Assembly (NCBI GenBank): GCA_022432975.1
Contig: CM039502.1
Span: 21,849,228 to 21,913,227 of the forward strand
DNA: 64,000 bases
Reading direction: 5' to 3'
Source of the DNA: Begonia masoniana
Taxonomy: Eukaryota > Streptophyta > Magnoliopsida > Cucurbitales > Begoniaceae
Shown: piece by piece, positions 2,651 to 58,300 of the stretch
How the letters are laid out: each line of letters opens with the position of its first letter
Numbering within the stretch: the first letter of the stretch is position 1
Notes under the pieces: generated by a model
Databases searched by the model: none
What the model was told of the DNA's origin: nothing
What the model saw: the letters and a program-made list of their open reading frames with translations, nothing else
Translations under genes and position numbers: made by a program

Positions 2651-4981
2651 CGAGGGTAGCGAGAGAGGAAGAAAACGTGAAGGACGGAGGAAAAACGGAA
2701 GAGAAACGGAGGTCGGACTCGTTGGAATCGCCGGCGGCCGAGAGAAGAAACCTTCTCTGTTCGTGCGTTCCAGAGAGAAAAGAGAGAAGAGAGGAAGTGA
2801 GGAAAAGAGAGAAAAGTGAGGTTATTTAATAATTTGATTTGGCAAATTACCAAATTGCCCTTAGCTCTTATTTCTATTTTGTTTCGTCCTTCGGTTCGTT
2901 AATCGTCCAACTATTCGGATTCTCGAAAGTTCCATATTTTGCCAACAACTTCTATTCATTGCCAGGGATTTATTAAAACTGTCCGTTCGCAATTTGGACC
3001 TCGTTTGCTATTTTTACGAGAACGTCTTTTACATTACGAAAAGCGTATTTACTCGGAATATAGTGTTTGATCTCCGAAAATTTCCGTAAATTCCTTAAAA
3101 TTCTTATTATTCGTTAGAATCGTAATGACGCTTTCCTTTTGTGAAACGGACCTGATTTGACATATTTACCAAAAATGCCACTAATAATATAATAATAATA
3201 TAATCAAAGGTCCGTACAAACTGGATATTACAGAACTCAAGCAGTTCCAGAATGTTTTCAAAACATTTAAAATATATGGATACAATCTGTCAAATACAGA
3301 GGTTTTGAATACATCAACAACAGAATATTTCAGGAGACAACTATCAATGGTCAAACAGAGATTTAAAACTCAAACACAAGAAACTATACATTACATATCC
3401 AGCAGAATTTCCTACAGAGTTTTAAACAAAACACAGGACTATACAGAGTTGTAAACACAACGCCAGAATTCCAGAAAAGGTTTTACAGACATAGACTTTA
3501 CTTTAAATACTTAAACCTCGGGGCAGAATTTGTCTGGCTGCAGCAACCACCCCCAATGAGCTCAATTCCCCAACTACATCAGCTCGTCATTATGAGGCAC
3601 AAGGTCCTCATCTGGAGTATCCGTACCTACAACAGGGAGTTCATCTATGAGCCTAGAGCTCAGTAAGAACATACAATGCAGAGTGATGAACGTGCTATGC
3701 ATGAATCTTTTTCAAATACATGAACATTACATTACATTTCATTTCACTGGACAGGAAGGTATAAGTGGGAGGGGGAGCTGGCGCAACAGGATGTACATGC
3801 CACTTCAGGACATAACAGGAGTACTTGACAGGATGCCAGTCCTCGTCCACACTTAACCATACATTTTCTTTACAGGATTTTATCTTACTTACTTCAAAAC
3901 CGGTGCAGAAAACATTTGCATGATTTTACAGAAAACGTGTATGCATGAATAAGTATGATACTCAACTTGACATTCATAATGACAGAATAAATGTAACAGG
4001 GAGAATAGAATGTAACAGGAACAGGTTTAACATAGAACATAACCTAAAACCTATCTACCCGAACCAGACTTAGTACCTCCAAGTTGTAGGGCCTTAAGGG
4101 CCAACGTAGATGCATGAACTTACCTGTTTGCAGCAATGCAGTGTGCTCGAACGCCCCTGGAAAGCTCGGATCTGTAAATGGATGTACAGAATTCAAACAC
4201 GCTACAAATGCTAACTAATATCTCGTAGGAAATGCAGCAAACACGTTTCAAGACTTTAGAAAACACACCAACGTGTTTTCATCCAAAAACAGTGAGTTTT
4301 CTCTAAAATAATAACCCTAAATCTCAGTGAAAACTCGCATTAAACTTGTCCAAATTCGTTAGCATTCAACCAGACATTTACCTCAGCGGGAAAACAGAAA
4401 GGAGCCGAGGAGATCGAAGTAACTTCGATGGTTGTTCGTCGACTGGAAGAGAGAAAACAGGAGGGAGTTTCACGCCAGAATGAAGAGAAGAACGGGAGGG
4501 AAGGAAGAAGACATGGCTTCTTCAACAAGTTGCCAGATGGCATTCATCCATTGGCTATTTCCCACCAACCTTAATTTCTCTCTATTTTACCCTTCCATTG
4601 GTCTTTAACTAATTTGCTATTTAGTTTCACCATTTGGTTTTATGAATCATACATATTCTGTAACACCCGACATTTCGGCCAGGTGATTTTCTGACCATTT
4701 TCATTGTCACCCTCTTATTTAACCGTTATGATTTAAATTTAATGTTAAGACAAATTTATTACAAGTTGAGTAAAACTAGGTTAGGTGGCAGTTTTGTAAT
4801 TAGAATCGATGGATTTAGTATAAATAGGAAATGGAAACCTTAAATCTCATTTATTGCCACTGTAGCCGACATTCCCTCTCGGCGATTTCTTCTCTCCCAA
4901 GTTCTTGCTCTCGGCTACCAGAACTTTCCTCTGCCGACGACCGGTCTCGAGCTTGCTTTTCTCTGCAAATCCACACCCGAG

Positions 4982-6054
4982 GTATGAAATGGACAATGTA
5001 GTCATTCATTAGTAAATAGAGCTCTGTTCTCAGCTCGGCACTGAGTTCGGATTTTTAGCAGTGGCCGAGCAGTTTGTGATTTTCTTAATCTGAGAGTAGA
5101 AATGTCATCCCGAATCAATTCTGAGCATTTTAAGTAACCAACTCGGATTTAATCAATGGAAAAACCTGTCCACCTAGTTTCGGATTTCAGACTGCAGTGT
5201 GTCAAACAGAGGAATCGGAATGACTTTAGCTAATAGATCCTAGGGTGGTTTATGATTAGGACTACTAGGACTTTGTTTTAACTACTGTAATATACATGTT
5301 TTAGGTGAAGAAGTTAAAGAGAGGAAGTTCGGATTGCTAAGGAATCCAGGTAAGTGAATGTATTAAGATTTCCGGCCACTAGGGCCCTACACCGCAAGGG
5401 TATTAGGGAATCACTGAGATGTTAGCTTATTGACTATGACTTGTTATTTCCACGATATGAAGAAGCTATGTAAGTAAATGTAAAGTTACAGGATGTTCTA
5501 CTTGTCCTTATGGTATGACTTTCCTCTATGAACCTCATGTCTATGCATCATGCCCACGTTTATGATTAAGTAGAGAACATGAAAAGTAAATGTAACCATG
5601 ATTAAGTGCAGAACGGGGAAAAGACTATATTATGTATGACTCGCGAATTCTCCCACTGGTGGAGGCCGAGTTAATGATTATGTATGACTCGCGAATTCTC
5701 CCACTGGTGGAGGCCGAGTTAATGATATGTATGACTCGCGAAATCTCCCACTGGTGGAGGCCGAGTAATGATATGTATGGCTCGCGAATTCTCCCACTGG
5801 GGAGGCCGAGTGATGTATCATGATTGCCGCGATAGGCAAATGATTATGTATGACTGCCGCGATAGGCAAATGACTATGTACCCCTGTCTTCCTCCCTCGT
5901 TCCCTGCCTTAATACATGTTATGTAAATGATAAAGATGAACATGAATGAAGAATGGTTTATGAATTATGTCCCTTTAAATTGTGTACTCATGTATATCTG
6001 TCAGCATGCATTCCTTACTAAGCATTAGGCTTATAGTTAAACCTTATGGTGTAG
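4982..6054 (+). other. Predicted two-intron leader of LTR C (microexon 5305-5349)
   Basis: Donor CGAG|GTATGA at 4982; acceptor GTTTTAG at 5304; 45-nt microexon; donor CCAG|GTAAGTG at 5350; hairpin GGCC-ACTAG-GGCC (about 5374-5387); arm CTACACC (5387-5393); branch-like CTTACTAAGCATTAG (6014-6028); acceptor arm GGTGTAG (6048-6054). The 48-bp tandem repeats lie inside intron 2. Splicing is inferred. Confidence 0.6.
5630..5875 (+). repeat. Tandem repeat, ~48-bp unit, about 4 copies, plus a short related pair
   Basis: Units contain GACTCGCGAATTCTCCCAC followed by TGGTGGAGGCCGAG and ATGAT. They are followed by two copies of GACTGCCGCGATAGGCAAATG. All lie inside predicted intron 2 of LTR C. The overlapping 63-aa ORFs on both strands are the repeat, not genes. 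Confidence 0.9.
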
Positions 6055-13030: not shown

Positions 13031-13637
13031 GATGCAATTTTTGAGATAAAACTTGGCAAATTTTAGCATAAAGACTTACAGGCAGGGAACATCGTAATAG
13101 GAGGCATGAGGGCTTCAGACCTTCAAACCCGATTTCACAACAAAGTTTTTGAATCATACTCTACAAATGACAGGAGTTCAATCAGACAAACTGTATGGAT
13201 AGCTCTAAATTTCGAGACTATCCATGCATGACCTGAAAAGGGAGAACTCAAGCAGTTCCAGAATGTTTTCAAAACATTTAAAATATATGGATACAATCTG
13301 TCAAATACAGAGGTTTTGAATACATCAACAACAGAATATTTCAGGAGACAACTATCAATGGTCAAACAGAGATTTAAAACTCAAACACAAGAAACTATAC
13401 ATTACATATCCAGCAGAATTTCCTACAGAGTTTTAAACAAAACACAGGACTATACAGAGTTGTAAACACAATGCCAGAATTCCAGAAAAGGTTTTACAGA
13501 CATAGACTTTACTTTAAATACTTAAACCTCGGGGCAGAATTTGTCTGGCTGCAGCAACCACCCCCAATGAGCTCAATTCCCCAACTACATCAGCTCGTCA
13601 TTATGAGGCACAAGGTCCTCATCTGGAGTATCCGTAC

Positions 13638-14392
13638 CTACAACAGGGAGTTCATCTATGAGCCTAGAGCTCAGTAAGAACATACAATGCAGAGTGATGA
13701 ACGTGCTATGCATGAATCTTTTTCAAATACATGAACATTACATTACATTTCATTTCACTGGACAGGAAGGTATAAGTGGGAGGGGGAGCTGGCGCAACAG
13801 GATGTACATGCCACTTCAGGACATAACAGGAGTACTTGACAGGATGCCAGTCCTCGTCCACACTTAACCATACATTTTCTTTACAGGATTTTATCTTACT
13901 TACTTCAAAACCGGTGCAGAAAACATTTGCATGATTTTACAGAAAACGTGTATGCATGAATAAGTATGATACTCAACTTGACATTCATAATGACAGAATA
14001 AATGTAACAGGGAGAATAGAATGTAACAGGAACAGGTTTAACATAGAACATAACCTAAAACCTATCTACCCGAACCAGACTTAGTACCTCCAAGTTGTAG
14101 GGCCTTAAGGGCCAACGTAGATTCATGAACTTACCTGTTTGCAGCAATGCAGTGTGCTCGAACGCCCCTGGAAAGCTCGGATCTGTAAATGGATGTACAG
14201 AATTCAAACACGCTACAAATGCTAACTAATATCTCGTAGGAAATGCAGCAAACACGTTTCAACACTTTAGAAAACACACCAACGTGTTTTCATCCAAAAA
14301 CAATGAGTTTTCTCTAAAATAATAACCCTAAATCTCAGTGAAAACTCGCATTAAACTTGTCCAAATTCGTTAGCATTCAACCAGACATTTAC
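13638..14392 (-). other. Predicted two-intron leader of LTR B (microexon 14135-14182)
   Basis: Minus reading: donor TGAG|GTAAAT at 14392; acceptor TTTACAG next to 14182; 48-nt microexon; donor ACAG|GTAAGTTC at 14134; hairpin GGCCCTTAAGGCC (14113-14101); arm CTACAAC (14100-14094); branch-like CTTACTGAG; acceptor arm GTTGTAG (13644-13638). Both arms differ from the other LTRs at the same pair, which keeps the pairing. Splicing is inferred. Confidence 0.55.
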
Positions 14393-15007
14393 CTCAGCGG
14401 GAAAACAGAAAGGAGCCGAGGAGATCGAAGTAACTTCGATGGTTGTTCGTCGACTGGAAGAGAGAAAACAGGAGGGAGTTTCACGCCAGAATGAAGAGAA
14501 GAACGGGAGGGAAGGAAGAAGACATGGCTTCTTCAACAAGTTGCCAGATGGCATTCATCCATTGGCTATTTCCCACCAACCTTAATTTCTCTCTATTTTA
14601 CCCTTCCATTGGTCTTTAACTAATTTGCTATTTAGTTTCACCATTTGGTTTTATGAATCATACATATTCAACTGGAAACATTAGCAAATTAATAAAAACA
14701 AACCTTGCATGATTATTCCCATTAATCCCGTTGAATAATTTAAGGAATATCTACATGGCAAAATGCCGGGTGTTACAAATGATGTGCATTTTAGGGATGA
14801 AATTGGGAGAAACTAGTGATTAGGTTAATGAGTGACTAAATAAGGGTAGAACTATAATATGGAGATTTAGTAGTGGATAACGTATTTAAGGAAGGGTTTT
14901 ATGAGGTTTAGCTGCCACTGTTTTCTCATTTTCTCTTTCGGTATTCAGCTCAAGCTCAGCAGAGCTCTCTAGGCAGCTTCCTCTCCGATTTTCATTCCGC
15001 AATCTAG

Positions 15008-15759
15008 GTGTGTTTTCCTTCGTTTTCCTTGAGTTCTAGTGACTAGATAGCAAGAAGAGTGCAATGTGTGTGTTGTGGGAACGCTGTGAATGAGAATCGG
15101 TTTAGGTTTTTATGATAAACAGGGGATGCACGATTATTAGAGTTCCAAGTTAGCTACCTTAGGTTTCCGAATGGTTTAAAATGAGGTATAGTGAAGATTG
15201 AATTAATACTCCGTTTATGATTTTAGGTGAGCAAACTCCCAAAGTAGCTTACAACCAAACAATCCCCAGGAGACCAGGTAAGTGAAGTATGCATGTACCT
15301 TCGGGCCTACATCACAAAACAGTAGGATTATGTATGTTTGAATTTGTCTGTATGTCATGCATCATATTTTGAAAGAATACAAAAATGAATTTGCATGTAT
15401 TGGTATGGTAAGAAATGAACAGATTGCAACAGATTAACTATTAAGGGAACTAATCTGCCCCTTAACTTATGAAGAGGATGTATGACTTTGGGAAAATTGA
15501 TCCGCTTCCCAATGGAATTTAGGATCAGATCAGCTGTTAAGGGAACTAATCCGCCCCTTAATTTATGAAGAGGATGTATGACTTTGGAAAAAATGATCCA
15601 ACTCCCAATGGAACCGTGGGATCAGATTAGAGAAAGAACGTGAATGCAACTGAGATGTGAAAGTAGAAACTGCATGACTAGGATTTATGTTTCACCATAT
15701 CATTTCATTATTACTTTACTTACTTAGCATTAGGCTAATAGATGAATTTTGTGATGTAG
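15008..15759 (+). other. Predicted two-intron leader of D 5' LTR (microexon 15227-15277)
   Basis: Donor CTAG|GTGTGT (CTAG|GTGAGT in the 3' LTR); acceptor GATTTTAG at 15226; 51-nt microexon; donor CCAG|GTAAGTG at 15278; GCC-like hairpin with TTCG loop, here with one mismatched stem base (15300-15307); arm CTACATCACAAAA (15307-15319); branch-like TTACTTAGCATTAGG; acceptor arm TTTTGTGATGTAG (15747-15759). The arms pair over 13 nt. Confidence 0.6.
15440..15640 (+). repeat. Two tandem ~100-bp units inside intron 2 of D 5' LTR
   Basis: Two copies of TTAAGGGAACTAATC(T/C)GCC, GAAGAGGATGTATGAC and CAATGGAA segments. The same pair is in the 3' LTR (about 24290-24490), and related units are in LTR E (two) and LTR L (three). 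Confidence 0.85.
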
Positions 15760-19031: not shown

Positions 19032-19301
19032 TGTAATACCCGGTTCTATCAAACCGTTTCTCTATTCCTTTTAAACTAATGGCACAATTTATATGGCAAT
19101 ATTAATTGTAGGGTTAGTGGATGACTAGGCAAGGGCATAAGGGTAATTAGAAATTCAAAGGTGGATAACGTATTTAAGGAAACTATTAATGAAGTAGCCG
19201 CCACTGTTTACTTCATTCCCTCTCCATTTTCAGCTCCTCAGCTTAGCAGAGCGCGATAGGAGACCCCCTTCGACTTCCTCCAGCGATTTCCTCCGAACTT
19301 G

Positions 19302-20084
19302 GTGAGTTTTGCTTCTATTTCTTGTTACATTGTATCTATAGTTGGTAGGAGGGATGATAAATGAGGTCTTGAGAAGGCGGTAAGCGAGTGGTGGTTTCGG
19401 TTTAAGTTGAAATCGGGAATGCACAATGACTAGAGTTCCCAAAACAGTTTCCCTTAGATTTCTAGTGGTTTAGAATGAAGATTAGAGGGAATATAATGTA
19501 TGCTCTGTCTATGGTTTTAGGTTTGAATAATACCCGAAGTAGCTTGCAACCAAGTTTTTCCAGGAGACCAGGTAAGTAAAGTTTGCTTGTGCCTTCGGGC
19601 CTACATCACAAAACGTTAGGGTTTGTATGCTGGAATGTGTTGGTATGTCATGCATCATTTTTTTTAAAGTATACGAAAATGAATTTGAAAGCATGTTGGC
19701 ATAGTGAGGATTGAACATATTGAAATAGCTATGTGAATCAGTTTTACTGTTAAGGGAAGTAATCCGCCACTTAATGAGACAGTGGATATTTATACTTTGG
19801 GAGAGTTGATCCAACTTCCAATTTCACAGGGGGATCTGAACATGTGAATCAGATTTGCTGTTAAGGGAATTTATCCGCCCCTTAATGAGCCAGTGGATGT
19901 ATATACTTTGGGAGAGTTGATCCAGCTCCCAATTTCACAGGGGGATCTGAACAGAAACGAAACATGAACAACTGAGTTGAGAAAGTAGAAATTGCATGAT
20001 TAGGAATTTATATATTTCAGTTTTACATTTCATTACAGCTTTACTTACTTAGCATTAGGCTAATAGATGAGTTTTGTGATGTAG
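19302..20084 (+). other. Predicted two-intron leader of LTR E (microexon 19521-19571)
   Basis: Donor CTTG|GTGAGT at 19302; acceptor GGTTTTAG at 19520; 51-nt microexon; donor CCAG|GTAAGTA at 19572; hairpin GCC-TTCG-GGC (19591-19600), a UUCG tetraloop in RNA; arm CTACATCACAAAAC (19601-19614); branch-like TTACTTAGCATTAGG (20044-20058); acceptor arm GTTTTGTGATGTAG (20071-20084). The arms are a perfect 14-bp inverted pair, the clearest case in the window. Confidence 0.65.
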
Positions 20085-20429
20085 GTGTTGAGGATACTGC
20101 AGGTGAATTTCCTGATTGCACAGATGATTAGATGTGGTTGGAGGAGCACATTCATGCCTCGGCCTGGTAAACTGATGAGGCGGGTTAACTGTTGTCTGAT
20201 GGTGTGAAAGATTAGTTGACAGTATTTCAATTTAAGTATGTTGAATTTTCATTACGGAAGTGATTTCAATGTTTTGAATACAATTTCGAGATTTTTCCTG
20301 TTAATAGTATTCTGTTGGGATTTAATGTTGGCACTCACTGGAATTTTAGTAATGTGATGGTTTGAAATGTTTTTGAATGGTTTTAGTGAAGTGAGTAAAT
20401 TCTTTTCTATAGGTTGAGTTGTTATTCTG

Positions 20430-20815
20430 TTGTCTATCGGAAGATGTCTTCAGTGGAAGCCATCGGATGATATAGAACGAAATTTGTCGTTTAGTGACCA
20501 GTGGATGTCGTGTGTTAATCCACCAGAAGATGTAGAAAATGTTTTGTCGTTTAGTGACCGGTGGATGTCGTGTGTTAATCTACCGGAAGATGTAGGAAAT
20601 GTTTTGTCGTTTAGTGACCGGTGGATGTCGTGTGTTAATCCACCAGAAGATGTAGGAAATGTTTTGTCGTTTTGTGACCGGTGAATGTCGTATGATAATC
20701 TACCGGAAGATGTAAGAAGTGTTTTGTCGTCTAGCTACCGGTGGATTCTGTGTAGCGTCGATCACCCGGCTGACGTCACCGGAAGATGTAGAGTGTATTT
20801 TTTCGTTTTGCCACC
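20430..20815 (+). repeat. 60-bp tandem array in LTR E with CCGGTGGATG / CCACCAGAAGATG
   Basis: About five units of GACCGGTGGATGTCGTGTG, TTAATC(C/T)ACC(A/G)GAAGATGT and AATGTTTTGTCGTTTAGTG. Each unit pairs a CCGGTGGAT half with an ATC(C/T)ACC(A/G)G half. A TGACGTCA occurs once at its end (20771-20778). The open frame across it is repeat-derived. Confidence 0.88.
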
Positions 20816-21156
20816 GGATGATGTCTTCTATTTTCTGTTTCAGCCCCTTTTGTTGACTTTGTCCAGCGGGCGATGCGTTTGACTTTTGAAACCTATAAAG
20901 TGTTATGCGATTTAATCCTTTATTCCTTTTGCCGATTATTCCCAAAAATTCTAACTGAGTATTCAAGCCTTGTACAATAGTTTTGTTTAACTCCATTTTA
21001 CTTAAATGATTTCCGCTGCAAGTTTCGAATATTATTGTTTTGAAGATTCCGCTTATGTCAAGTTTTTCAAAAAAAAAATAAATAAATACGGTTGAAATTT
21101 TAGTCATGTACGGGTATGGTGTGACGAACCGGGTTCAGATAACTCGGGGCTTTACA

Positions 21157-23858: not shown

Positions 23859-24610
23859 GTGAGTTTTCCTTCGTTTTCCTTGAGTTCTAGTGACTAGATA
23901 GCAAGGAGAGTGCAATGTGTGTGTTTCGGGAACGCTGTGAATGAGAATGGGTTCAAGTTTTTATGATAAACCAGGGATGCACAATTATTAGAGTTCCAAG
24001 TTAGCTACCTTAGGTTTCCGAATGGTTTAGAATGAGGTATAGTGAAGATTTAATTAATACTCCGTTTATGATTTTAGGTGAGCAAACTCCCAAAGTAGCT
24101 TACAACCAAACAATCCCCAGGAGACCAGGTAAGTAGAGTATGCATGTGCCTTTGGGCCTACATCACAAAACAGTATAATTATGTATGTTTGAATTTGTTT
24201 GTATATCATGCATCATATTTTGAAAGAATACGAAAATGAATTTGCATGTATTGGTATGGTAAGAAATGAACAGATTGCAACAGATTAACTATTAAGGGAA
24301 CTAATCCGCCCCTTAACTTATGAAGAGGATGTATGACTTTGGAAAAATTGATCCGCTTCCCAATGGAATTTAGGATCAGATCAGCTGTTAAGGGAACTAA
24401 TCCGCCCCTTAATTTATGAAGAGAATGTATGACTTTGGGAAAAATGATCCAACTCCCAATGGAACCGTGGGATTAGATCAGAGAAAGAGTATGAATGCAA
24501 CTGAGATGTGAAAGTAGAAACTGCATGACTAGGATTTATGTTTCAGCATATCATTTCATTATTGCTTTACTTACTTAGCAGTAGGCTAATAGATGAGTTT
24601 TATAATTTAG
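23859..24610 (+). other. Predicted two-intron leader of D 3' LTR, acceptor decayed
   Basis: Donor CTAG|GTGAGT at 23859; microexon 24078-24128 (51 nt); donor CCAG|GTAAGTA at 24129; hairpin GCC-TTTG-GGC; arm CTACATCACAAAAC (24158-24171). The acceptor arm here is TTTTATAATTTAG instead of TTTTGTGATGTAG, so pairing is weakened in this copy only. Confidence 0.55.
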
Positions 24611-25713: not shown

Positions 25714-26473
25714 GTTATCGTCCAAAGTTATCGTCCACGATAACGTCGCCGAGAGTCTGCCTGTTATTTTAAAAGTCCAAAGTTTGTCTTTGAATTTAAA
25801 CGTCCACGGAATCCTGTGTCCATTTTTTTTGTCTTTTAGTGCAAACGTCCACGGACTCCTGTGTCCACTGTTTGTGTCTTTTAGTGCAAACGTCCACGGA
25901 CTCCCTTGTCCACTGTTTTTGTCTTTTAGTGCAAACGTCCACGGACTCCCTTGTCCACTGTTTTTGTCTTTTAGTGCAAACGTCCACGGATTTCTGTGTC
26001 CACTGTTTTTGTCTTTTAGTGCAAACGTCCACGGACTCCTGTGTCCATTGCTTTTGTCTTTTAATGTAAACGTCCACAGATTCTATCTTCTGTGCGATTG
26101 TCCACAGCTCCCGATTGTCCACGGCCACTGTAGCTTTCCACAGTATGTCTTCCAGTTTATGCTTTTCCCATATTATTTCCTGTTTTACTTCTGTTTTTCA
26201 TATTTCCCCGTCTTCCTGCTCTCGTTCAGAGTACTCGTCCACAATTTTTATGATCCAGTTCTTTTCTGTTGTGTTCTGTTCATTTGTTCTTTCCTTCTCT
26301 TTTCAAAGTCCATTTGGCCTGTTGTTTTAAACGTCCAAATTATGCCTGCTGTTTTAAACGTCCAAAGTCTATTTTTACTTCTGTCTTCCTGTCAAAGTTA
26401 AAAAAAAATAGTCTACGTTTTAAAATGTCCGGAGTGAGGCTCCTCGACCACGATCGGGTCGGGGGTCGTCACA
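25714..26473 (+). mobile_element. LTR tail F (host of element D)
   Basis: Directly after D the sequence runs to GGGTCGGGGGTCGTCACA, the usual 3' end of these LTRs, then changes character. No PBS follows, so this is a 3' or solo LTR end in plus orientation. Its beginning lies left of the whole nest, outside the window. It holds a 60-bp CGTCCACGGA array. Confidence 0.75.
25795..26080 (+). repeat. 60-bp tandem array, about 5 copies, CGTCCACGGACTCC type
   Basis: Units carry AAACGTCCACGGACTCC, GTGTCCACTG and TTTTTGTCTTTTAGTGC. The repeat length divides by three, so long frames stay open on both strands (25784-26401 plus, 25796-26128 minus). These encode only the repeat and I do not call them genes. 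Confidence 0.9.
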
Positions 26474-29122: not shown

Positions 29123-30616
29123 GTAAGGCTCGGTTTCCCTTGTTTTGGTTCGGTTTTCGGGTTTGTTCATGGCCGACTGTGACGAGCCGGTTTTGGCTCC
29201 GATCGCCGGCCGTTTTAGGTTACTTCCGGCGTGGGTTTGTCCACCCTAGGGCCGGCTATTGTCGATTGGCGGTGGAGCGCTCAATTTGAGCGAAATTCAG
29301 TGAATGCCCGATTAGGGCAATTCGGGTTTGTGGTTTGGAACTTCGATTTTAGGTTAGTTTATGTTAATTGGATGTTAGTAGGATAGATTGGTAAAGAAAT
29401 TGATGGAATTTGATGAAAAATCAAAAATGGGGATTTTCCGGGTAAAGGGCAGATTCGGGTTTTGCCTAAATTGACCTAGCTCCGGTCATTTGTTTTAAAA
29501 TTTCTTTTGGCAGATTAAAATAGGTTATTAGGGGAGTACGTGGCCGCTGGAATCGTTCGATTCCGATAACCGACGCAAAAGTTACGCGCGTTTGAGTTTT
29601 AGGTCGGTTTTTACCAAACCCAAAATAGTGGCCCGTTTAGTTAGATTTTAGTTAGATTAAGCTATAAATAGTAGTTTAAGATGTTTTTAAGAAAATAAGA
29701 GTTTAGTTATGCCCGAAAGAGAAAATGGAAATTTTAGGAAAGAATTTCCTAAATTAGGAGATTAGTTTAAGTTTGAAATTAGTTTAATTAGAATTGATTT
29801 TAATGTACCTTATTTATGAAATGCTTTAGGTGGAGACGACTTTTGGACGGTGCTCGGCTTACTACGGACGCCAGGTAAGTGGATGTTTAGGCTTCCGGCC
29901 CTTAAGGCCCTACATCATGTCAACGTTAGGTTTTTGTATTTTGATGATGATTTTCTGACTGTGGGTTTAATGAGTCGGGTAGCCTAGAATGTTAGTTATT
30001 AGTGGTTTGTTAAGTTTGTTATGAGTATAGTATGTTCATGTACGTTGTGAATGGTTGATGGTATGTCCATGTATGTCTATGAATTCCTCACGCATCATGT
30101 TTTATAAAAGGTGCATACGAACTATTTACGAACATGTTTTTAAGATGAATTGAACGATAATGATTTAAAGATAATATGAAAAAGTTAAATGAAAGAACGA
30201 TCAGGTGAACGGTGTATGATTCTCACGTGTATGTTTCTCATGGTTCTGACTATGCGTTTCTCATGGTTCTGACTGTACGTTTCTCATGGTTCTGACTGTA
30301 TGTTTCTCATGGTTCTGACTGTACGTTTCTCATGGTTCTGACTGTACGTTCTCATGGTTCTGACTGTATGGTTCTCACGGTTCTGACTGTATGTTCTCAC
30401 GGGGCAAGTTATGTATGTTCTCACGGGGCAAGTTATGTGTTCTCACGGGGCAAGGAAATGGTCTACTACGTAGACAAACGAGAAAATGTTAACAAAACGA
30501 AACGATTATGTACGATGAAACTGTAGTAACTGCATATGTTAAGTAAAATGTTTTAAATTCATATAGTGCATCCCCTTACTAAGCATTAGGCTTACTGTTT
30601 ATGTTGTATGGTGTAG
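29123..30616 (+). other. Predicted two-intron leader of LTR H (microexon 29830-29874)
   Basis: Donor CCG|GTAAGG at 29123; acceptor TGCTTTAG at 29829; 45-nt microexon; donor CCAG|GTAAGTG at 29875; hairpin GGCC-CTTAA-GGCC (29897-29909); arm CTACATCAT (29910-29918); branch-like CTTACTAAGCATTAGG (30576-30591); acceptor arm ATGGTGTAG (30608-30616). One arm position pairs as U-G. Confidence 0.6.
30225..30465 (+). repeat. ~24-bp tandem array (CATGGTTCTGACTGTACG) and GTTCTCACGGGGCAAG repeats
   Basis: Roughly eight TTCTCATGGTTCTGACTGTA units and three TGTTCTCACGGGGCAAGTTA units, all inside predicted intron 2 of LTR H. Confidence 0.9.
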
Positions 30617-32107: not shown

Positions 32108-32526
32108 TGTGATGACCCGAATGAACACATATGAGGAGGAACCACCTAGTGCTCCGCGAATCCCGAGTGGGACTTGGGCCGGAGGGTGACGTGCTGGGTT
32201 AAAACTCTGCGGATCCTGGGTTGGACTTGGGCCGGAGGGTTTGGTCATAGAAAGATGGGTCGTCACAGTCCCACATCGCTTAGGGAAGTATGTGGAAATG
32301 AAACATATGTAAAGAGACCATCCCAAGATAGCAAGAAGCGTTTTGGAGCACAATTGGCAACGGATCCCATAAGAACTCCGAAGTTAAAAGTGCTTCGGCG
32401 AGAGCAATTCCAGGTTTGGTGACCTTCTGGGAAGTTCTTGCCAAACAAAGCCGTGAGGGGAGGATATTGGGCTGCGGTCCAATCCCCAGAGCCGACAATA
32501 TCTTGCTGGGAATTGGGGTCGTTACA
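32108..32526 (+). mobile_element. Solo Cassandra LTR (419 bp) with 5S-like region, TSD TATAT
   Basis: TGTGATGACCC to GGGGTCGTTACA, flanked by TATAT at 32103-32107 and 32527-32531. Cassandra is a non-coding TRIM whose LTR carries a 5S rRNA-like sequence with RNA polymerase III control elements. This copy is longer than the 377-bp LTRs elsewhere in the window because GACTTGGGCCGGAGGGT is duplicated near its start. Confidence 0.93.
32361..32440 (+). other. 5S rRNA-like segment in Cassandra LTR
   Basis: GGATCCCATAAGAACTCCGA, then AGTGCTTCGGCGAGAG (box A/IE-like) and GGTGACCTTCTGGGAAGTTC (box C-like) match the 3' two-thirds of plant 5S rRNA in order and spacing. It is not a 5S gene, since the ends differ. 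Confidence 0.88.
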
Positions 32527-32531
32527 TATAT

Positions 32532-33014
32532 GTAGAGTTGATCATAATCGATATGAAAGGGTACGAAGTCATTTTAGGGATGAATTGGTTATTCAGACAT
32601 TACGCCACAATAAGTTGTAGGACTGGATTAGTTGAATTCCGACCCCCGAATGGAGACTGGTATTCTTTTTAAGTCATTCCAAAAACAAGCAAGATGCCGA
32701 TTATATCCTCGTTGGATGCTCAGCAGTTATTGAAGAATGGATGTGTGGGTTATCTAGCTAGTGTAATTGATGTATGAGAAAAGGATAAGCTAAAACTCCA
32801 AGACATTCCTATTGAATTTGTGATCGATACGTACCCTGAAGCCTCGCCAGTGTCTAAGAATCCCTATCGTACGGCACCCGTTGAACTGAAGGAACTAAAA
32901 ACTCAGTTACAAGAGTTGGTAGACAAGGATTTCGTGCGCCCTAGTTGTTCTCCATGGGGTGCACCTGTTTTATTTGTCAAAAAGAAGGACGGGTCCCTCA
33001 GAATGTGCATAGAT
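32532..33014 (+). pseudogene. Element G protease end and RT start
   Basis: Reads DMKGYEVILGMNWLFRHYATI (protease block 2), a TAA, a linker LDAQQLLKNGCVGYLASVIDV then TGA, then the RT start (32820-33014): [17 protein letters not shown] and [16 protein letters not shown]. The frame is interrupted by the MITE at 33015. Confidence 0.87.
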
Positions 33015-35039: not shown

Positions 35040-36005
35040 CTACATCATAAGGTTTAAACTATAAGCCTAATACTTAGTAAGGAATGCAATGCTAACACAT
35101 ATGCACGAATGCATAGTTTAAAGAAAACACATGCTCATGAATCTTTTCTTATTCTTGTTCATATTCATATTCATCGTTTAATTCATCATTCATATTCATC
35201 ATTTACATTGTATGGATTAAGAGAGGATTTGTGCCGGTAAAGGGGGTTCGACAGTGAAAGTGTACATAGTCCCTTACGGGTCGTATTCTTGGTCCCTCTT
35301 TTGGACAGTGACATACGCCAAACCGCCCTCAACCCTCTCATAATCCATGTTGCATAGGTTTCATATTCATATTTTGTTCATGAAAGAAAACATGCACTTA
35401 AAATACTTTCATATGCTTGATAAACATTCGTGATGCATGAGTAGGGATACTCTTAGTTCATTATTCTTCTGAACAGGTCATACATCTAACAAGGATCATT
35501 CTTACAGTTCAAGTATCGTAACTAACAGACAAAAGCTTAGATAATCTTTAAACATCAAAAATCAGTTTCTAACTAGTACCCTCGTGATGTAGGGCCCTAA
35601 TGGCCGGGTATCCTACACATTCACTTACCTGGTTTCCTTAGCAATCTGGAGCACTTCTCTGCAATCTTCTTCACCTAGAACATTTCACATTATGGAGTTA
35701 AACAAAATCCTAAAAGTCTTAACCAATAGTTATCCTAGAATCTAACACATTTGTACTTCTAGTTTCTCTAGTCAACACCTTGTGTGCGTGGATTCAGATT
35801 CCAGGTCCTAAATAATCGGATTCAACCTAGCAGCTGTACACAGTCGATTATCTTAATGTCCAGATTCGAATCAGAAATGCCATTACTAAATGCGAATTAA
35901 AATGTCACTAAAATAACTCTGCCATTAAAGAATCCGAAACTACAGAGCTTAGCTGAAAAACAGAGCTCAAAATGGTTAACCAGCTACTACATTGTCGACT
36001 CTTAC
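35040..36005 (-). other. Predicted two-intron leader of LTR I (microexon 35629-35674)
   Basis: Minus reading: donor CTAG|GTAAGA at 36005; acceptor TTCTAG next to 35674; 46-nt microexon; donor CCAG|GTAAGTG at 35628; hairpin GGCC-ATTAG-GGCC (about 35605-35592); arm CTACATCA (35592-35585); branch-like CTTACTAAGTATTAGG; acceptor arm TGATGTAG (35047-35040). 8-nt perfect pairing. Confidence 0.58.
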
Positions 36006-38905: not shown

Positions 38906-38990
38906 TGTAACAACCCCGTTTCCCAGCAAGATATTGTCCGCTCTGGGGAATGGGCCGTAACCCAATATCCTCCCTTCACGGCTTTGTTTG

Positions 38991-39070
38991 GCGAGAACTT
39001 CCCAGAAGGTCACCAAACCTGGAATTGCTCTCGCCGAAGCACTTTTAACTTCGGAGTTCTTATGGGATCC
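38991..39070 (-). other. 5S rRNA-like segment, left LTR of Cassandra
   Basis: Minus strand: GGATCCCATAAGAACTCCGA, AGTGCTTCGGCGAGAG and GGTGACCTTCTGGGAAGTTC in order. Confidence 0.88.
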
Positions 39071-39440
39071 GTTGCCAATTGTGCTCCAAAATGCGTCTTG
39101 CTATCTTGGGAGGATCTCTTTACATATGTTTCATTTCTACATACTTCCCCAAGCGATGTGGGATTGTGACGACCCTTTTTTTACGACCTGTCACCTTCCG
39201 TTTCGCCCGCGCGGACGTACTGCCATCCGGGTTCCGGTTCGTGTAGCCAACGTACCCATACGTGCATATTCGGGTCATCACAATCACCCCCCCTCGGGGG
39301 CCCAACATCCTTGTTGGCCACATTTTCGATTGGGTACAAGCTCTGATACCATTTGTAACGACCCTTTTTCCCAGCAAGATATTGTCCGCTCTGGGGATTG
39401 GGCCGCAACCCAATATCCTCCCCTTACGGCTTTGTTTGGC

Positions 39441-39517
39441 AAGAACTTCCCGGAAGGTCACCCAACCTGGAATTGCTCTAGCCGAAGCACTTTTAACTTC
39501 GGAGTTCTTATGAGATC
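39441..39517 (-). other. 5S rRNA-like segment, right LTR of Cassandra
   Basis: Same as the left copy with a few changes (GATCTCATAAGAACTCCGA, AGTGCTTCGGCTAGAG). Confidence 0.87.
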
Positions 39518-39735
39518 TGTTACCAATCGTGCTCCAAAACGCGTCTTGCTATGTTGGAAGGGTCTCTTTACATATATTTCATTTCCACATACATCCCCAA
39601 GCGATGTGGGATTGTGACGACCCCTTTTTTACGACCTGACACCTTCCGGTTCACCCGCGCAGACGTACCGCCATCCGGGTTCCGGTTCGTGCAGCCATTG
39701 TACACATACTTACGCATCCGGGTCAACACAATAAG

Positions 39736-46963: not shown

Positions 46964-48519
46964 ATGACTACTAGAAGTGGCACAAATTATCGCCAAAACT
47001 TTGACCAAGGCCTAGACATGGAAACTCCCCAAGCTGAAAACCCTCAAGTGGGTGAATCAAGTCTTCAAAGACAAATTGATGGCCTTTATAATGACCTATT
47101 TTCCCAGTAAGATATTGTCCGCTCTGGGGATTGGGTCGTAGCCCAATATCCTCCCCTCACGGCTTTGTTTGGTGAGGACTTTCCAGCCGGTCACCCAACA
47201 TGATACTGCTCTTGCCGGGCACTTTTAACTTCAGAGTTCTTATGGGATTCATTGCCAATTGTGCTCCAAAACGCGTCTTACTATTTTGGGAGGGTTTCCT
47301 TACATATGTTTCATTTCCATATACCTCCTTGAGTGATGTGGGATTGTGACGACCCCCTTTTTATGACCCGAGATTTGCCTACACTTGGCTTAGATCCAAA
47401 GGTTTGCCCGCAACCCGAGGTTTACCCCGCAGTCGTGCTCATACGTACACATTTAGGTTATCACAGCCTTAGTCAATTAATGAAGCAATTTATGGAAAAA
47501 ATGGATGAACGTAACAAATTAATGAACATAATAAAAACTTGCAAGAACCATTACCTAGGGAGAGAAATGATTCGGACTTTAGAATTCCTATTTCTAGAAG
47601 AAGAAATGAACTAGATTTCCAAGATCCCTTATCCATAAGAAGAACCGAACCCGATTTTCCAGAACCCATGCACAAAAGGAACACTGAACCTCCTATGAAT
47701 AGGGTCCGTAATCAAAATTACTGTGATGAAGAATGGTTTGAAGGAGAAGAAGATTTCATTCCAAACCAACGTCGAGACAACGATGACTATAGGCATGCCA
47801 AGTAATTTGTTCTCTCATTTAATGGAGCATGTAATGGTGACACATTTTTGTACTGGTTAGACAAAGTCGAGAAAATATTCAACTATTATGTATATTTGGA
47901 TCATACTATGATACAACTAGTAGCAGTTGAACTAACCGGCTATGCGTCCATATGGTGGGAGAATTTGAAATCCCAAATATGGCAAAACAATAAAGGTTTA
48001 GTCACCACATGGAGAGAAATGAAGTCCTTCATGCGAAAGAGGTTCGTGCCTAGTCACTACCGACAAAAGCTTTTCCTACAAATGCAGAGCCTAATGCAAA
48101 GAGGACAATCTGTAGAGAAGTATCTCACTGAATTAGAGATGCTAAGGATAAGAGGAGGATGGAATGAACCGGAGGAACAAGTGATTGCTAGGTTCATTCG
48201 TGGATTAAACCGAGATATAAGTAACGTAGTAGAATTACATCCTCTTAATACATTGGATTCGGTTTCCCAAATGGCCATGAAGGTAGAAAGATAATTGAAA
48301 AGAGAGGTAAGGACGACTTCTAAGTTTCCTTCCAAAACCCTAGAAACCTACGAGAAAACCGTCAAAATTGAGGAGAAGAAACCTTTCACCAAAAGCTTGC
48401 CGACTAAGGAGATTAGTAGCACACCTACAATAGCAGATGCTAGTCAAAATAGGGCAAGAGACGTTAAATGTTTCAAATGTCAAGGTCTCGAGCACATGAT
48501 GGCTCAGTGCCCTAACTGA
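46964..48519 (+). pseudogene. Element J gag, broken and split by a Cassandra LTR
   Basis: Starts MTTRSGTNYRQ at 46964. Solo Cassandra LTR 47087-47465 interrupts it, and after that the frame resumes in phase (QLMKQFMEKMDERN). A frameshift near 47535 leads to LPRERNDSDFRIP-type repeats, and a TAA at 47803. Then comes the gag core YWLDKVEKIFNYY, IWWENLK, WREMKSFMRKRFVPSHY, EQVIARFIRGLN, ISNVVELHPLNTL and VSQMAMKVER. A TAA (48292-48294) follows, and in the same frame the zinc knuckle CFKCQGLEHMMAQC. The motifs fit another chromovirus lineage than Tekay, possibly Reina-like. Confidence 0.82.
47087..47465 (-). mobile_element. Solo Cassandra LTR (379 bp), TSD GCCTT
   Basis: Plus-strand edges TATAATGACC (decayed TGTAATGACC) and GGTTATCACA; GCCTT at 47082-47086 and 47466-47470. 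5S-like segment about 47175-47250 on the minus strand, more decayed than the others. Confidence 0.9.
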
Positions 48520-52336: not shown

Positions 52337-53173
52337 CTACATCACAAAACTCACCTATTAGCCTAATGCTAAGTAAGTAAAGCAAATGAAATGGAATACT
52401 AAAACATAAATCCTAATCACGCAGTTTCTACTTTCACAACTCAGTTGCAATTTCGTTCATTCACTGATATGATCCCTCGGTTCCATTGGGAGGTGGATCA
52501 ATTTTTCCAAAGTCATACATCCTCTTCTCAATTAAAGGGCGGATTAGTTCCCTTAACAGCTGATCTGATCCCTCAATTCCATTGGGAGGTGGATCAATTT
52601 TCCCAAAGTCATACATCCTCTTCTCAATTAAGGGGTAGATTAGTTCCCTTAACAGCTGATCTGATCCCTCAATTCCATTGGGAGTGGGATCAGTTCTCCC
52701 AAAGTAATAAATCCTCTACTCGATTAAGGGGCGGATTACTTCCCTTAATAGCTAATCTGTTTCAATCTGTTCATACCTTGCCATAACATTTCATATAAAT
52801 TCATTTTCGTATTTCTTCAAAAACATGATGCATGACATAAAGAAAACACTCAAACATGCATAAACCTACTGTTTTGTGATGTAGGCCCGAAGGCACATAC
52901 AATACTTCACTTACCTGGCTTCCCGAGAGGTTCCTGGTTGCAGGATATTCCAAGAGCTGGCTCACCTAAAACATAAGCACAGCATTACTTAAACTTCATT
53001 CTAAACATTCGAAAATCTAAGGGGCTAGTCCTGGGAGTTCTTTTCTTCACCATTCTCGATTCCTCTCTAAACCCCAAATCTCATCCCTCACTCACAGCAC
53101 TTCTAAAACGCATACATTGTCATCCATCAGTTACCTAGACACTAAAACAACAAGTAATCGAATCAAAACTTAC
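52337..53173 (-). other. Predicted two-intron leader of LTR L (microexon 52915-52965)
   Basis: Minus reading: donor CAAG|GTAAGTTT at 53173; acceptor GTTTTAG next to 52965; 51-nt microexon; donor CCAG|GTAAGTG at 52914; hairpin GCC-TTCG-GGC (52894-52885); arm CTACATCACAAAAC (52884-52871); branch-like TTACTTAGCATTAGG; acceptor arm GTTTTGTGATGTAG (52350-52337). Perfect 14-bp pairing. Confidence 0.63.
52460..52775. repeat. Three ~117-bp tandem units in intron 2 of LTR L
   Basis: Repeats of GATC(C)CTC(A/G)(A/G)TTCCATTGG, GTGGATCA, CCAAAGTCATACATCCTC and CCCTTAACAGCTGATCTG; homologous to the pairs in D and E. The 113-aa ORF here is repeat-derived. Confidence 0.88.
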
Positions 53174-53452: not shown

Positions 53453-54298
53453 AAATTCATGCAATTTATATAAAAATGCATGCATATTTGTATTCGAACC
53501 ATTTAAAAATTTATGTCATTAACCACAGTTTAAAACTATTCTCAACAAATAGATAAATCTTATACAATTTAAAATAAATATTTCACGATTTAAAGTCATC
53601 ATTTCACAAAACATTCAATGCAATCTTTTAACATTCAAATTGATATGTCAAAAATGTAATTCACTCTAATTGACGCATATGACCATCACACAATCGTACA
53701 AGTTTCCGGGCTTTCACCGGTAAGGCTGTAGGACCACCCTACACATTGCTTCCCGGAGAGGTTTAGGGATTTTCAACCCAAGGAGAACACATAGTTAATC
53801 TCACAATCATTTTCATAGTCATACTTATCGCACACGAAGAGACAAGTCCAGTTCAATTGGTTCTTATGTTACCACGACTTCCAACTTCCTCCTTCCTAAA
53901 TGAATGATTTAAAAATAATTATAAAGCAATGTTATGCATGTTTAAATTAATACAACTCACCCATGAAATGAATTTGAAATTCACACACTCAATTTAACAT
54001 AAAATATCGTTTTAAAATAATACTTTGTAACTCATCAGTTTCCAAAATATTTCCTTTTTATACATTTCAATACAAATAAAAAAAATATTCTTTTCACAAC
54101 AAAACAATTCAATTCATTTACATCATCGAAACAACATCAATTTATCCCTTCAATCCTCAATCAAACTCTATCATATCCAGATCCAAGACAGAAATGTAAA
54201 TTATCTCCACCTAGTAATGCAATAAAGCATAAACTAACTATTTTAACCGTTAGAATTACTTACCGACTTGTTGGTTCCTTCACTTTAACCAAAAATAT
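53453..54298 (-). mobile_element. Old gypsy LTR P, first visible block
   Basis: AT-rich. The minus strand has a donor CGACTTACCG-type site (GTCG|GTAAGTAA near 54262) and a hairpin-like CCGGTGAAAGCCCGG near 53710. It continues at 59790 after the nested Cassandra/M insertion. Identified as LTR because the right block ends at a PPT. The left edge was not found. Confidence 0.5.
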
Positions 54299-54384
54299 TG
54301 TAACGACCTCTTTTCCCAGTAAGATATTGTCCGCTCCGGAGATTGGGCCGTAGCCCAATATCCTTCCCTCACGGCTTTGTTTGG

Positions 54385-54463
54385 CAAGGACTTCTCAGTC
54401 GGTCACCCAACCTGGTACTACTCTCGTCGAAGCACTTTTAACTTCGGAGTTCTTATGTGATCC
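54385..54463 (-). other. 5S rRNA-like segment, left LTR of the split Cassandra
   Basis: Minus: GGATCACATAAGAACTCCGA, AGTGCTTCGACGAGAG, GGTGACCGACTGAGAAGTCC; decayed but ordered. Confidence 0.82.
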
Positions 54464-54835
54464 GTTGTCAATTGTACTCCAAAACGCATCTTACTATCTT
54501 GGGAGGGTCTCTTTACATATGTTTCATTTCCACATACTTCTCCAAGCGATGTGGGATTGTGATGACCCCCTTTTTACGACCCGTCACTTTCCGGTTCGCC
54601 CGTGCGAACGTACCGCCATCTAGGTTCCGGTTCGTTCAGCCATCGTACACATACTTACATATCTGATTCATCACAATCACCCCCCCTCGAGGGCCCAACG
54701 CCCCCGTTGGCCACATTTCTGGTTGGGTACAGACTATGATACCATTTGTAACGACCCCTTTTTCCAGTAAGATATTGTCCGCTATGGGGATTGGGCCATA
54801 GCCCAATATCCTCCCCTCACGGCTTTGTTTGGCAA

Positions 54836-54914
54836 GGACTTCCCAGTCGGTCACCCAACCTGGTACTACTCTCACCGAAACACTTTTAACTTCAGAGTTC
54901 TTATGTGATCCGTT
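54836..54914 (-). other. 5S rRNA-like segment, right LTR of the split Cassandra
   Basis: Same order as the left copy; LTR M is inserted about 10 bp beyond its start. Confidence 0.8.
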
Positions 54915-55337
54915 GCCAATTGTGTAACACCCGGTTTTACGGGATTTTAATATTCTAGTAAATAATTGTATTTTTGTAAATATGTCAAATTAAGTCTATT
55001 TTGTGAACGGAAAGTTTTAATGGAGCCTTAATAATAAATTAAAATTTACGGTGAAATAAGGAAGTTTAGAGAAAACGAATCGATTGATTTATTTACGAGA
55101 TAAGTGGTGGAATAAATAGGAAAATCCAAATGAAGGGTGAAATGGTCATTAAACACTCAAATTGTAATTAAAAAGGCAAATGCCTCCCACGAAATTCATT
55201 CTGAAGATTTTCTTCTTTTCTCCAGAGAACTTTGCGATTTCTCTTCTCCCTCTCTCATGCATTTCTTCCTCCGGCGACCGAAGTTTCTTCCGATCGACTC
55301 CGACTCTTCACGATTTCTTCTCTGATCAACGTTCTAG

Positions 55338-58300
55338 GTAATATTCTATAGTTTTTGAATGTTGGATTTTGGTTTTCTAGAGTTTAAACGATGAGGGCTC
55401 GTTTAGGGTTTTTGTGAAATTGTCGGATTAAGTTAAAAATTGTTAGGGTTACCTTATTTATGACCCTAGTCAACGTATTGGTGATTGTTGGACGAAGTTA
55501 GACGATTTATTGGTGAATGTTAGGGTTTTACAGGTTTGGAGCTTTGGGAAAACTCCATTAATGGAGGTTTTGAAATGTCGAGCACGAATTGCTCGACAAA
55601 ATGCCTTAATGAGTTGATTTAGAGTTTTAGGAGATTTCCTTAGTTAAGGTTTCGTTAGTTTGGAAGTTTAATGTTGTAAACTCGGTTTTAAATGACGAAT
55701 GTTGTGCATTGCCTTAGGTAAACAACGCTCGTGGATGGAGCTTGAATTGCAACGGACGCGAGGTAAGTTCTCGTGACTTACTATGGCCGATTGGCCTACA
55801 CCATATGTCAAAGTTGCGTTGAGGAATATTGGAGTTCGTTAGTTTGGAAGTTTAATGGTGTAAACTCAATTTTAAATGACGAATGTTGTGCATTGCCTTA
55901 GGTGAACAACGCTCGTGGATGGAGCTTGAATTGCAATAGACATGAGGTAAGTTCTCGTGACTTACTATGGCCGATTGACCTACACCGTATGTCGAAGTTC
56001 CGTTGAGGAATATTGGAGTTTGTTTGTTTAATTGCTTTGGTTTGGTAGTTAGGATTATTGCTTTATAGGTTATGCTTTTATCGTCTTGATGGTACACAGG
56101 CTGTATGTTTATGTTAGGCATTTAATTGTTCATGCATCACGTTTTCAAAGAGCATGAAACGAAGATTTCCTTAGTTAAGGTTTCGTTAGTTTGGAAGTTT
56201 AATGGTGTAAACTCAGTTTTAAATGACGAATGTTGTGCATTGCCTTAGGTGAACAACGCTCGTGGATGGAGCTTGAATTGCAATAGACATGAGGTAAGTT
56301 CTCGTGACTTACTATGGCCGATTGACCTACACCGTATGTCGAAGTTCCGTTGAGGAATATTGGAGTTTGTTTGTTTAATTGCTTTGGTTTGGTAGTTAGG
56401 ATTAGTTGCTTTTATAGGTTATGCTTTTTATCGTCTTGATGGTACACAGGCTGTATGTTTATGTTAGGCATTTAATTGTTCATGCATCACGTTTTTCAAA
56501 GAGCATGAAAACGAATTTTTGCACGTGTTTAAGAAAAGAAATGAACTAATGAAACGAATCTACGTAATCTGTTATCTGGTCATGACGAGGTGGGGTTCAG
56601 GCATGACTGTTTACGGATGTAAGTATGTTCCCCCCCCCCCCCCCCGATAGATAGAAAGGTTTCCACCGCCGGACTTGCCCTCTCCATCTGGTGGGTTTTT
56701 TGAAATGTCGAGCACGAATTGCTAGACAAAATGCCTCAATGAGTTGATTTAGAGTTTTAGGAGATTTTCTTAGTTAAGGTTTTGTTAGTTTGGAAGTTTA
56801 ATGGTGTAAACTCAGTTTTAAATGACGAATGTTGTGCATTGCCTTAGGTGAACAACGCTCGTGGACGGTGCTTGAATTACAACAGACGCGAGGTAAGTTC
56901 TCGTGACTTACTATGGCCGATTGGCCTACACCGTATGTCGAAGTTGCGTTGAGGAATATTGGAGTTTGTTTGTTTAATTGCTTTGGTTGGGTAGTTAGGA
57001 TTAGTTGCTTTTATAGGTTATGCTTTTTATCGTCTTGATGGTACACAAGCTGTATGTTTATGTCATACATTTAATTGTTCATGCATCACGTTTTTCAAAG
57101 AGCATGAAAACGAATTTTTGCACGTGTTTAAGAAAAGAAATGAACTAATGAAACGAATCTACGTAATCTGTTATCTGGTCATGACGAGGTGGGGTTCAGG
57201 CATGACTGTTTACGGATGTAAGTATGTTCCCCCCCCCCCCCCGATAGATAGAAAGGGTTGTCCAACCGCCGGACTTGCCCTCTCCATCTGGTGGGTTTTT
57301 TGAAATGTCGAGCACGAATTGCTAGACAAAATGCCTCAATGAGTTGATTTAGAGTTTTAGGAGATTTCCTTAGTTAAGGTTTCGTTAGTTTGGAAGTTTA
57401 ATGGTGTAAACTCAGTTTTAAATGACGAATGTTGTGCATTGCCTTAGGTGAACAACGCTCGTGGACGTGCTTGAATTACAACAGACGCGAGGTAAGTTCT
57501 CGTGACTTACTATGGCCGATTGGCCTACACCGTATGTCGAAGTTGCGTTGAGGAATATTGGAGTTTGTTTGTTTAATTGCTTTGGTTGGGTAGTTAGGAT
57601 TAGTTGCTTTTATAGGTTATGCTTTTTATCGTCTTGATGGTACACAAGCTGTATGTTTATGTCATACATTTAATTGTTCATGCATCACGTTTTTCAAAGA
57701 GCATGAAAATGAATTTCTGCATGTGTTTAAGAAAATAAATGACTAATGAAACGAATCTACGTAATCTGTTATCTGGTCATGACGAGGTGGGGTTCAGGCA
57801 TGACTGTTTACGGATGTAAGTATGTTCCCCCCCCCCCCCCGATAGATAGAAAGGGTTGTCCAACCGCCGGATTGCCCTCTCCATCTGGTGGGTTTTTTGA
57901 AATGTCGAGCACGAATTGCTAGACAAAATGCCTCAATGAGTTGATTTAGAGTTTTAGGAGATTTCTTAGTTAAGGTTTTGTTAGTTTGGAAGTTTAATGG
58001 TGTAAACTCAGTTTTAAATGACGAATGTTGTGCATTGCCTTAGGTGAACAACGCTCGTGGACGGTGCTTGAATTACAACAGACGCGAGGTAAGTTCTCAT
58101 AACTTACTATGGCCGATTGGCCTACACCGTATGTCGAAGTTGCGTTGAGGAATATTGGAGTTTGTTTGTTTAATTGCTTTGGTTGGGTAGTTAGGATTAG
58201 TTGCTTTTATAGGTTATGCTTTTTATCGTCTTGATGGTACACAAGCTGTATGTTTATGTCATACATTTAATTGTTCATGCATCACGTTTTTCAAAGAGCA

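Follow-up and report, generated by a model that had tools for sequence, protein, structure and literature searches.

Plant long terminal repeat (LTR) retrotransposons generally lack introns; the consulted part of one account names Ogre and EVADE as exceptions and adds splicing in BARE1 (PMC12786077). These three are plant LTR elements that combine splicing with retained full-length RNA, as is proposed for the elements considered here, and in EVADE the splicing takes the protease part out of the gag-pol RNA (same part of PMC12786077). In human immunodeficiency virus type 1 (HIV-1), also a retroelement, the 5' leader pairs away the splice donor in genome-bound RNA (PMC4576207, in the part consulted). 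Euglenid intermediate introns have GT-AG borders and ends that are able to pair and so to meet (PMC4770533, in part), and in yeast zipper stems a stem within the intron links the 5' splice site region with the branch-point region (PMC12350175, in part). Here we describe, in a 64,000-nucleotide stretch of DNA from Begonia masoniana (GenBank assembly GCA_022432975.1, contig CM039502.1, positions 21,849,228 to 21,913,227, forward strand; hereafter the window), a predicted intron inside the LTRs of ten related retrotransposons, both splice sites of which lie in covarying complementarities that cross each other.

Two crossing helices at the ends of a predicted LTR intron

The window is plant DNA packed with nested LTR retrotransposons, ten of which carry the feature (A, B, C, D, E, H, I, L, M and N). 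Together they contribute 12 LTR copies, since B and D are present with two LTRs each, the second LTR of D being copy F. All 12 copies were located through their intron ends within this one window, and the presence of the intron in 12 of 12 therefore describes a biased sample.

The anatomy is best followed in element E, a solo LTR (TGTAATACCC...TTTACA) recognised by sequence reading at 19032-21156 on the plus strand, on which all its features below also lie. Its predicted intron 2 (19572-20084, 513 nucleotides (nt), GTAAGT...TGTAG) opens with the 5' strand of a helix that we call P1 (19572-19583), made up of the 5' splice site and the bases that follow it. A small hairpin, GCC-UUCG-GGC (19591-19600, recognised partly by eye), then abuts the 5' strand of a second helix, P2 (CTACATCACAAAAC, 19601-19614). 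Towards the other end lie the 3' strand of P1 (AGCTTTACTTAC, 20037-20048), which is the partner of the donor and ends 36 nt from the acceptor, a branch-point-like CTAAT (20060-20064, judged against the branch-point consensus) and the 3' strand of P2 (GTTTTGTGATGTAG, 20071-20084), the final base of which is the last base of the intron. The order is thus P1 5' strand, hairpin, P2 5' strand, variable middle, P1 3' strand, a loop of about 22 nt and P2 3' strand, with P1 starting on intron base 1 and P2 stopping on the last. Because the two helices cross, they would jointly make a long-range pseudoknot. Intron length ranges from 482 to 2861 nt and the geometry of the ends is almost constant. The loop that separates the two 3' strands holds a branch-point-like CTNAY in the ten elements, and the hairpin abutting P2 has a UUCG loop in D (with a stem short of one pair), E and L, the form GACC-GAAA-GGUC in A and GGCC stems in most of the others.

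In all ten elements P2 joins the bases preceding the predicted acceptor to a site 29-37 nt past the donor, its 5' partners starting at intron positions +30 to +38. This is the complementarity noticed in the original prediction, and the arm pairs listed there exist in the sequence of A, B (both LTRs), C, D, E, H, I, L, M and N. The arm had been placed about 25-50 nt from the donor; it is indeed near the donor, at the narrower distance just given. The helix itself is longer than the 7-14 nt proposed, with 11-15 pairs in each of the ten elements when short bulges or internal loops are permitted (in H it continues across a one-base bulge). Across both strands of the window the motif CTACAYCAYA was counted 16 times, where 0.48 were expected. 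Arms paired with their own partners averaged -17.2 kcal/mol compared with -10.1 for partners from other families, and none of 100000 permutations reached the own total; swaps of partners inside a family gave -15.1, close to the own pairs, which was counted against the signal and is expected of relatives. On a MAFFT alignment, 87.9% of the cells were paired and the covariation score was 0.359 versus 0.173 in shuffled data, none of 500 shuffles being as high in either respect, and sliding the partner reduced both values. The five pairs next to the acceptor (CTACA/TGTAG, pairs 1-5) are invariant and, as they never vary, uninformative on covariation. The signal resides in pair 6, which is C-G, U-A, A-U or, in H, the intermediate U-G, and in pairs 9-13.

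P1, the helix that contains the donor, was overlooked in the original prediction. Here, intron bases 1 to about 12-14 (GTAAGT and the bases following) pair with a stretch finishing in [C/T]TTAC, forming 11-13 pairs in ten of ten elements. This 3' strand finishes 35-38 nt upstream of the acceptor (36-38 in nine elements, 35 in M), and intron base 1 is paired with the base 36-39 nt from the intron end. The first four pairs are invariant and the fifth turns to G-U once. Column 7 is U-A, C-G, G-C, G-U or A-U except in one element, and column 8 is A-U, G-C, U-A or C-G except in two; the exceptions are mismatches or bulges. The own energy of P1 was -11.9 compared with -7.5 for partners from other families, and 0 of 100000 permutations were as good. 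In nine of the ten elements P1 outpairs U1 on the same donor, and would hence be able to compete for it. In both helices the bases of the splice site are nearly fixed and the outer pairs covary, as expected when splicing and pairing are both selected.

A scan of 4032 pairs of 18-nt windows at the two ends of the introns, made without choosing a place in advance, had P1 as its best cluster (z -5.6) and P2 as its second (z -4.5); the next-best place reached z -3.7 with weak energy. Permutation of whole families (five groups, 120 permutations) placed the true pairing first for P1 and first for P2, and a control stretch further inside the same introns ranked 25th. Intron 1 of the same LTRs served as another control (in E a predicted 219-nt intron in the leader, 19302-19520, with borders set by sequence reading in ten elements). 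Its ends show nothing comparable to P1 or P2: over 2970 window pairs the best z was -3.7, with an own energy of only -6.8. Mispairs in ungapped registers were G-U in 21 cases and A-C in four, a bias that fits sense RNA and is unexpected for a DNA palindrome or an antisense RNA. The ten-element tests leave out the second LTR of B (the same element as B), copy F and M copies 2-6, and their statistics do not represent independent events because elements within families are related. Both complementarities and their covariation are real.

That the two P2 arms change together, as originally proposed, is thus borne out by the shuffles, the permutations and the ranking among families. Selection for the pairing had been proposed as well, either to bring the splice sites together or to hide the acceptor. 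Selection is supported, acting on sense RNA to judge from the G-U bias, and P1, which takes in the whole donor, tips the choice towards hiding of both sites.

Nested folding of nine whole introns (M left out) gave P2 with at least ten pairs in four of them, A, E, L and N. The ends were more conserved than the middle in the comparisons C-I (ends 0.69-1.00, middle 0.48), E-L, D-E and M-N. In the comparison of the first LTR of D with its second, two copies that evolve free of selection for mobility, conservation of the middle equals or exceeds that of the arms (0.96, versus 0.71 for the P2 3' arm).

Sequence features of a leader segment predicted to be spliced

A GTAAGT donor preceded by an exonic AG was present in 12 of 12 LTR copies, as was an acceptor AG (F ends in TTTAG), and in each of the ten elements the A of the CTNAY precedes the acceptor by 21-23 nt. 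The borders are therefore GT-AG with a branch-point-like site 20-40 nt upstream of the acceptor, as in U2-type introns. In E, predicted exon 2 (19521-19571, 51 nt) carries CCAG directly before the donor, and its open frame carries on into predicted exon 3 (20085-20131), which is coding-like and has 47 nt including the stop. In every one of the 12 LTRs of the ten elements the frame stays open from exon 2 over the junction and through exon 3. Exon 2 measures 45, 48 or 51 nt in nine elements and 46 in I. The stop in exon 3 falls at nt 47 in seven of the ten elements (C, D, E, I, L, M and N) and also in F, making eight of the 12 copies, and is written as TAG, TAA or TGA; in A, B and H it falls at nt 68, 53 and 32. 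Such continuity across the junction lends weak support to splicing. Together with the consensus sites and the branch-point-like CTNAY, it suggests that the predicted intron is spliced.

The joined exon 2-3 frame of E and of the 11 other copies is coding-like, with an acidic tail. Further downstream, a TGATGAGGCGG-like stretch (20165-20200 in E) is conserved in the D/E/F/L family and has no Rfam match at gathering score.

The intron is present in each of the two LTRs of B and likewise in those of D. A search for joined exons, with a tolerance of only six edits in 28 nt, returned the donors of the known copies and one acceptor, and no intron-less copy. The introns contain 15-105 ATGs, and the 120 nt upstream of donor 1 contain none in six of the ten elements and one or two in the other four, in counts that exclude the leader after exon 3.

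Other classes of intron and RNA were considered. A group II or euglenid nonconventional intron was rejected, as the borders are canonical throughout and the euglenid pairing of +4..+6 with -8..-6 is not matched. An Rfam scan of the window at gathering scores returned only 5S rRNA and no ribozyme, and a hammerhead-like CTGATGAG near 20173 was discarded on this basis. An extension of the Pol C terminus spliced into the 3' LTR was also rejected: by eye, B, D and I share no donor at the end of pol.

The elements and the remaining copies

Element E is flanked on both sides by the 5-bp target duplication AATGG, recognised by sequence reading. It sits inside the reverse-transcriptase gene of D, and pol of B aligns to both of its flanks until the insertion point.

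Element B, on the minus strand, has two LTR blocks (3232-4658 and 13243-14669) that are 99.72% identical where aligned. The 3' LTR holds its intron at 3627-4123 (donor 4123, acceptor 3627) and the 5' LTR at 13638-14134. Its domains follow in the order Retrotrans_gag, RVP_2, RVT_1, RNase H, integrase zinc-binding and then rve and Chromo, the last two with matches under the curated cut-offs. B thus has gag, protease, reverse transcriptase, RNase H and an integrase with a chromo-like end between LTRs, as in Ty3-type (Metaviridae-like) elements; this domain check was made on B, and D and H give only pieces. The nearest relatives of its gag are angiosperm proteins with 30-35% identity (17 best matches), and a search of viral_contigs with its reverse-transcriptase protein found no relative.

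In D, the intron of the 5' LTR lies at 15278-15759 and that of the 3' LTR, copy F, at 24129-24610, both on the plus strand; the 5' LTR is followed by a primer-binding-site-like TGGTATCAGAGAC at about 16898. On the plus strand, too, are the introns of C (5350-6054), H (29875-30616, with the P2 5' arm at 29910) and N (62221-62760). Those of A (1672-2254, with the same anatomy and the GAAA hairpin), I (35040-35628) and L (52337-52914) are on the minus strand. The intron of M (55763-58623, plus strand) is built of six tandem donor-hairpin-arm units with one acceptor, the donors being at 55763, 55947, 56294, 56893, 57492 and 58089. In its last unit P1 is weaker (-7.7 versus -13.3), and only there is the donor-side helix weakened.

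Two other kinds of repeat were observed in the window. Four 5S rRNA matches (32340-32452 on the plus strand; 38986-39090, 54373-54485 and 54825-54929 on the minus strand) fall within, or at the border of, a repeat family found at 32232-32536, 38906-39732, 47086-47370 and 54298-54924. We take this family to resemble the Cassandra-type small LTR elements, which carry 5S promoters. A reading frame of 205 codons crosses repeated units at 25784-26401; part of this stretch, 25775-26082, shows a self-match displaced by about 90 bases.

A possible lock on splicing and its alternatives

An element that splices a leader lying inside its LTR faces a paradox, for a spliced template loses the intron permanently. 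During LTR retrotransposition, the 5' end of the genomic RNA is the template for U5 in both new LTRs. Unspliced RNA would therefore be needed as the genome, because a spliced template would lose the intron from U5 of both new LTRs; the intron in 12 of 12 copies, found by their intron ends, is consistent with this need. We give roughly even credence to the reading that P1 and P2 act as a lock on splicing that keeps part of the element RNA unspliced for reverse transcription. In such a model, transcription would begin upstream of exon 1, and U1 would bind the donor before the acceptor end is transcribed, allowing some transcripts to splice. Once the 3' end has been made, P1 would shield the donor and P2 the acceptor, leaving the branch-point-like site in the loop. 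The locked RNA would remain unspliced and serve as genome, and the spliced RNA, having lost a leader segment rich in AUGs, would act as mRNA. A more tentative extension, possible but in our judgement falling short of probable, is that the pseudoknot-locked LTR intron is a switch that times itself, the delay from donor to lock setting the split between mRNA and genome and guarding the intron in the LTR.

The helices could instead aid splicing, looping out the middle and joining donor, branch point and acceptor in the manner of yeast zipper stems. The nearly constant end geometry in introns of such different lengths would suit this role, as would the branch-point-like site between the two 3' strands. 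Yet P1 holds intron bases 1-5 and P2 the last five, so that U1 and the factors of the 3' site would have to melt both, and efficient splicing would strip the intron from genome copies, which in B and D keep it in both LTRs. We therefore regard a helper function as unlikely. A structure that serves mainly to tag unspliced RNA as genome, as a packaging, dimer or export signal with incidental occlusion of the splice sites, seems to us less probable again. The tetraloop hairpin (UUCG, GAAA) abutting P2 speaks for such a tag, and so does the HIV-1 packaging structure, which sequesters the splice donor (PMC4576207, in the part consulted); a mere tag, however, would have no need of helices that stop exactly at intron bases 1 and -1.

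That the segment is never spliced and is simply a structured LTR leader with splice-site-like ends we consider very unlikely. Donor and acceptor bases lie in helices, and pairing alone could fix them; the case for splicing is drawn from sequence features. Against this stand the fixation of GTAAGT and TGTAG while other pairs covary, the exonic AG before the donor in every copy, the position of the CTNAY before the acceptor and the continuity of the frame over the junction. Least credible of all is that the arms are remnants of a terminal inverted repeat, or are kept alike by template switching without selection on the RNA: P2 by itself does resemble, in E and L, a terminal inverted repeat of 14 bp, and inverted repeats can correct one another through template switching, but we rejected this origin because there are two crossing pairs rather than one repeat, mispairs are G-U far more often than A-C, families differ in the bulges and wobble pairs of their helices and the second LTR of D decays, and by eye the arm borders in E lack a target duplication.

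Several observations weigh against a splicing lock or against the evidence on which it is built. All tests draw on only ten related elements in one window, and their grouping into five families is our own; in a tree of the flanks, H groups with A, M and N, whereas at the intron ends it is similar to C and I. Two of the five covariation measures for P2 fail to beat the shuffles, since 134 of 500 shuffles were as high for pairs changed on both sides and 187 of 500 for further pair types. The P1 pairs were counted on a hand-gapped table, as the MAFFT alignment of the P1 strands misplaced strands and was left unused; alignment-free duplex energies were used besides. In copy F the P2 5' arm is present and P1 is kept, and the P2 3' arm is broken. 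The excess of conservation at the ends is less clear in D-L, where the middle is conserved as much as some end segments, and in A-N and A-M, where conservation is low at -35..-15. Nested folding recovered P1 in none of the nine introns. As crossing helices cannot share one nested fold, such folding neither proves nor excludes the crossing structure, and P1 and P2 need not form together or at the same time. With regard to the predicted splicing, no start codon for the exon 2-3 frame was found upstream, and the third-position excess in this frame is weak (71, 74 and 101) in seven within-family comparisons that are not independent; to these points belong also the narrow tolerance of the intron-less search and the restricted region of the ATG counts.

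Comparison with known systems

If a lock on splicing operates in these elements, clamping the two splice sites would resolve the paradox of the LTR intron directly at the level of RNA, independently of retroviruses and in a class of DNA that is very abundant in plants. Plants would then also offer a strong example of long-range, conserved pairing between intron ends.

The Ogre intron is located in the coding part of that element. The predicted intron described here lies within the LTR, unlike those of Ogre and EVADE, and the consulted part of PMC12786077 describes no intron in an LTR. A text search of a study of centromeric elements (Neumann et al. 2011, PMC3059260) had no match even for common words, so that its silence counts for little as evidence of absence. 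Paired ends in an LTR intron were not described in any of the literature matches listed (titles and starts of abstracts), a set outside which lie most subscription papers and all preprints. A pattern for the acceptor block had no matches in viral_contigs or genome_contigs. A donor-arm pattern matched one record in viral_contigs, L001, which was rejected as a chance match because BLAST gave no match between it and the window and its matches to the acceptor block were weak.

Euglenid intermediate introns occur in euglenid genes, and the consulted parts of PMC4770533 describe no crossing pair that involves the donor. In contrast to yeast zipper stems, as described in the part of PMC12350175 consulted, here the splice-site bases themselves lie in the helices, and the pairing covaries. 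The LTR intron with paired ends would be a variant of structure-gated retroelement splicing. Of an occlusion like that in HIV-1, what is seen here, from sequence alone, is the covarying complementarity of the donor. Unlike in HIV-1, the pairing involves the acceptor as well as the donor, and the two crossing helices belong to one predicted LTR intron in another class of element.
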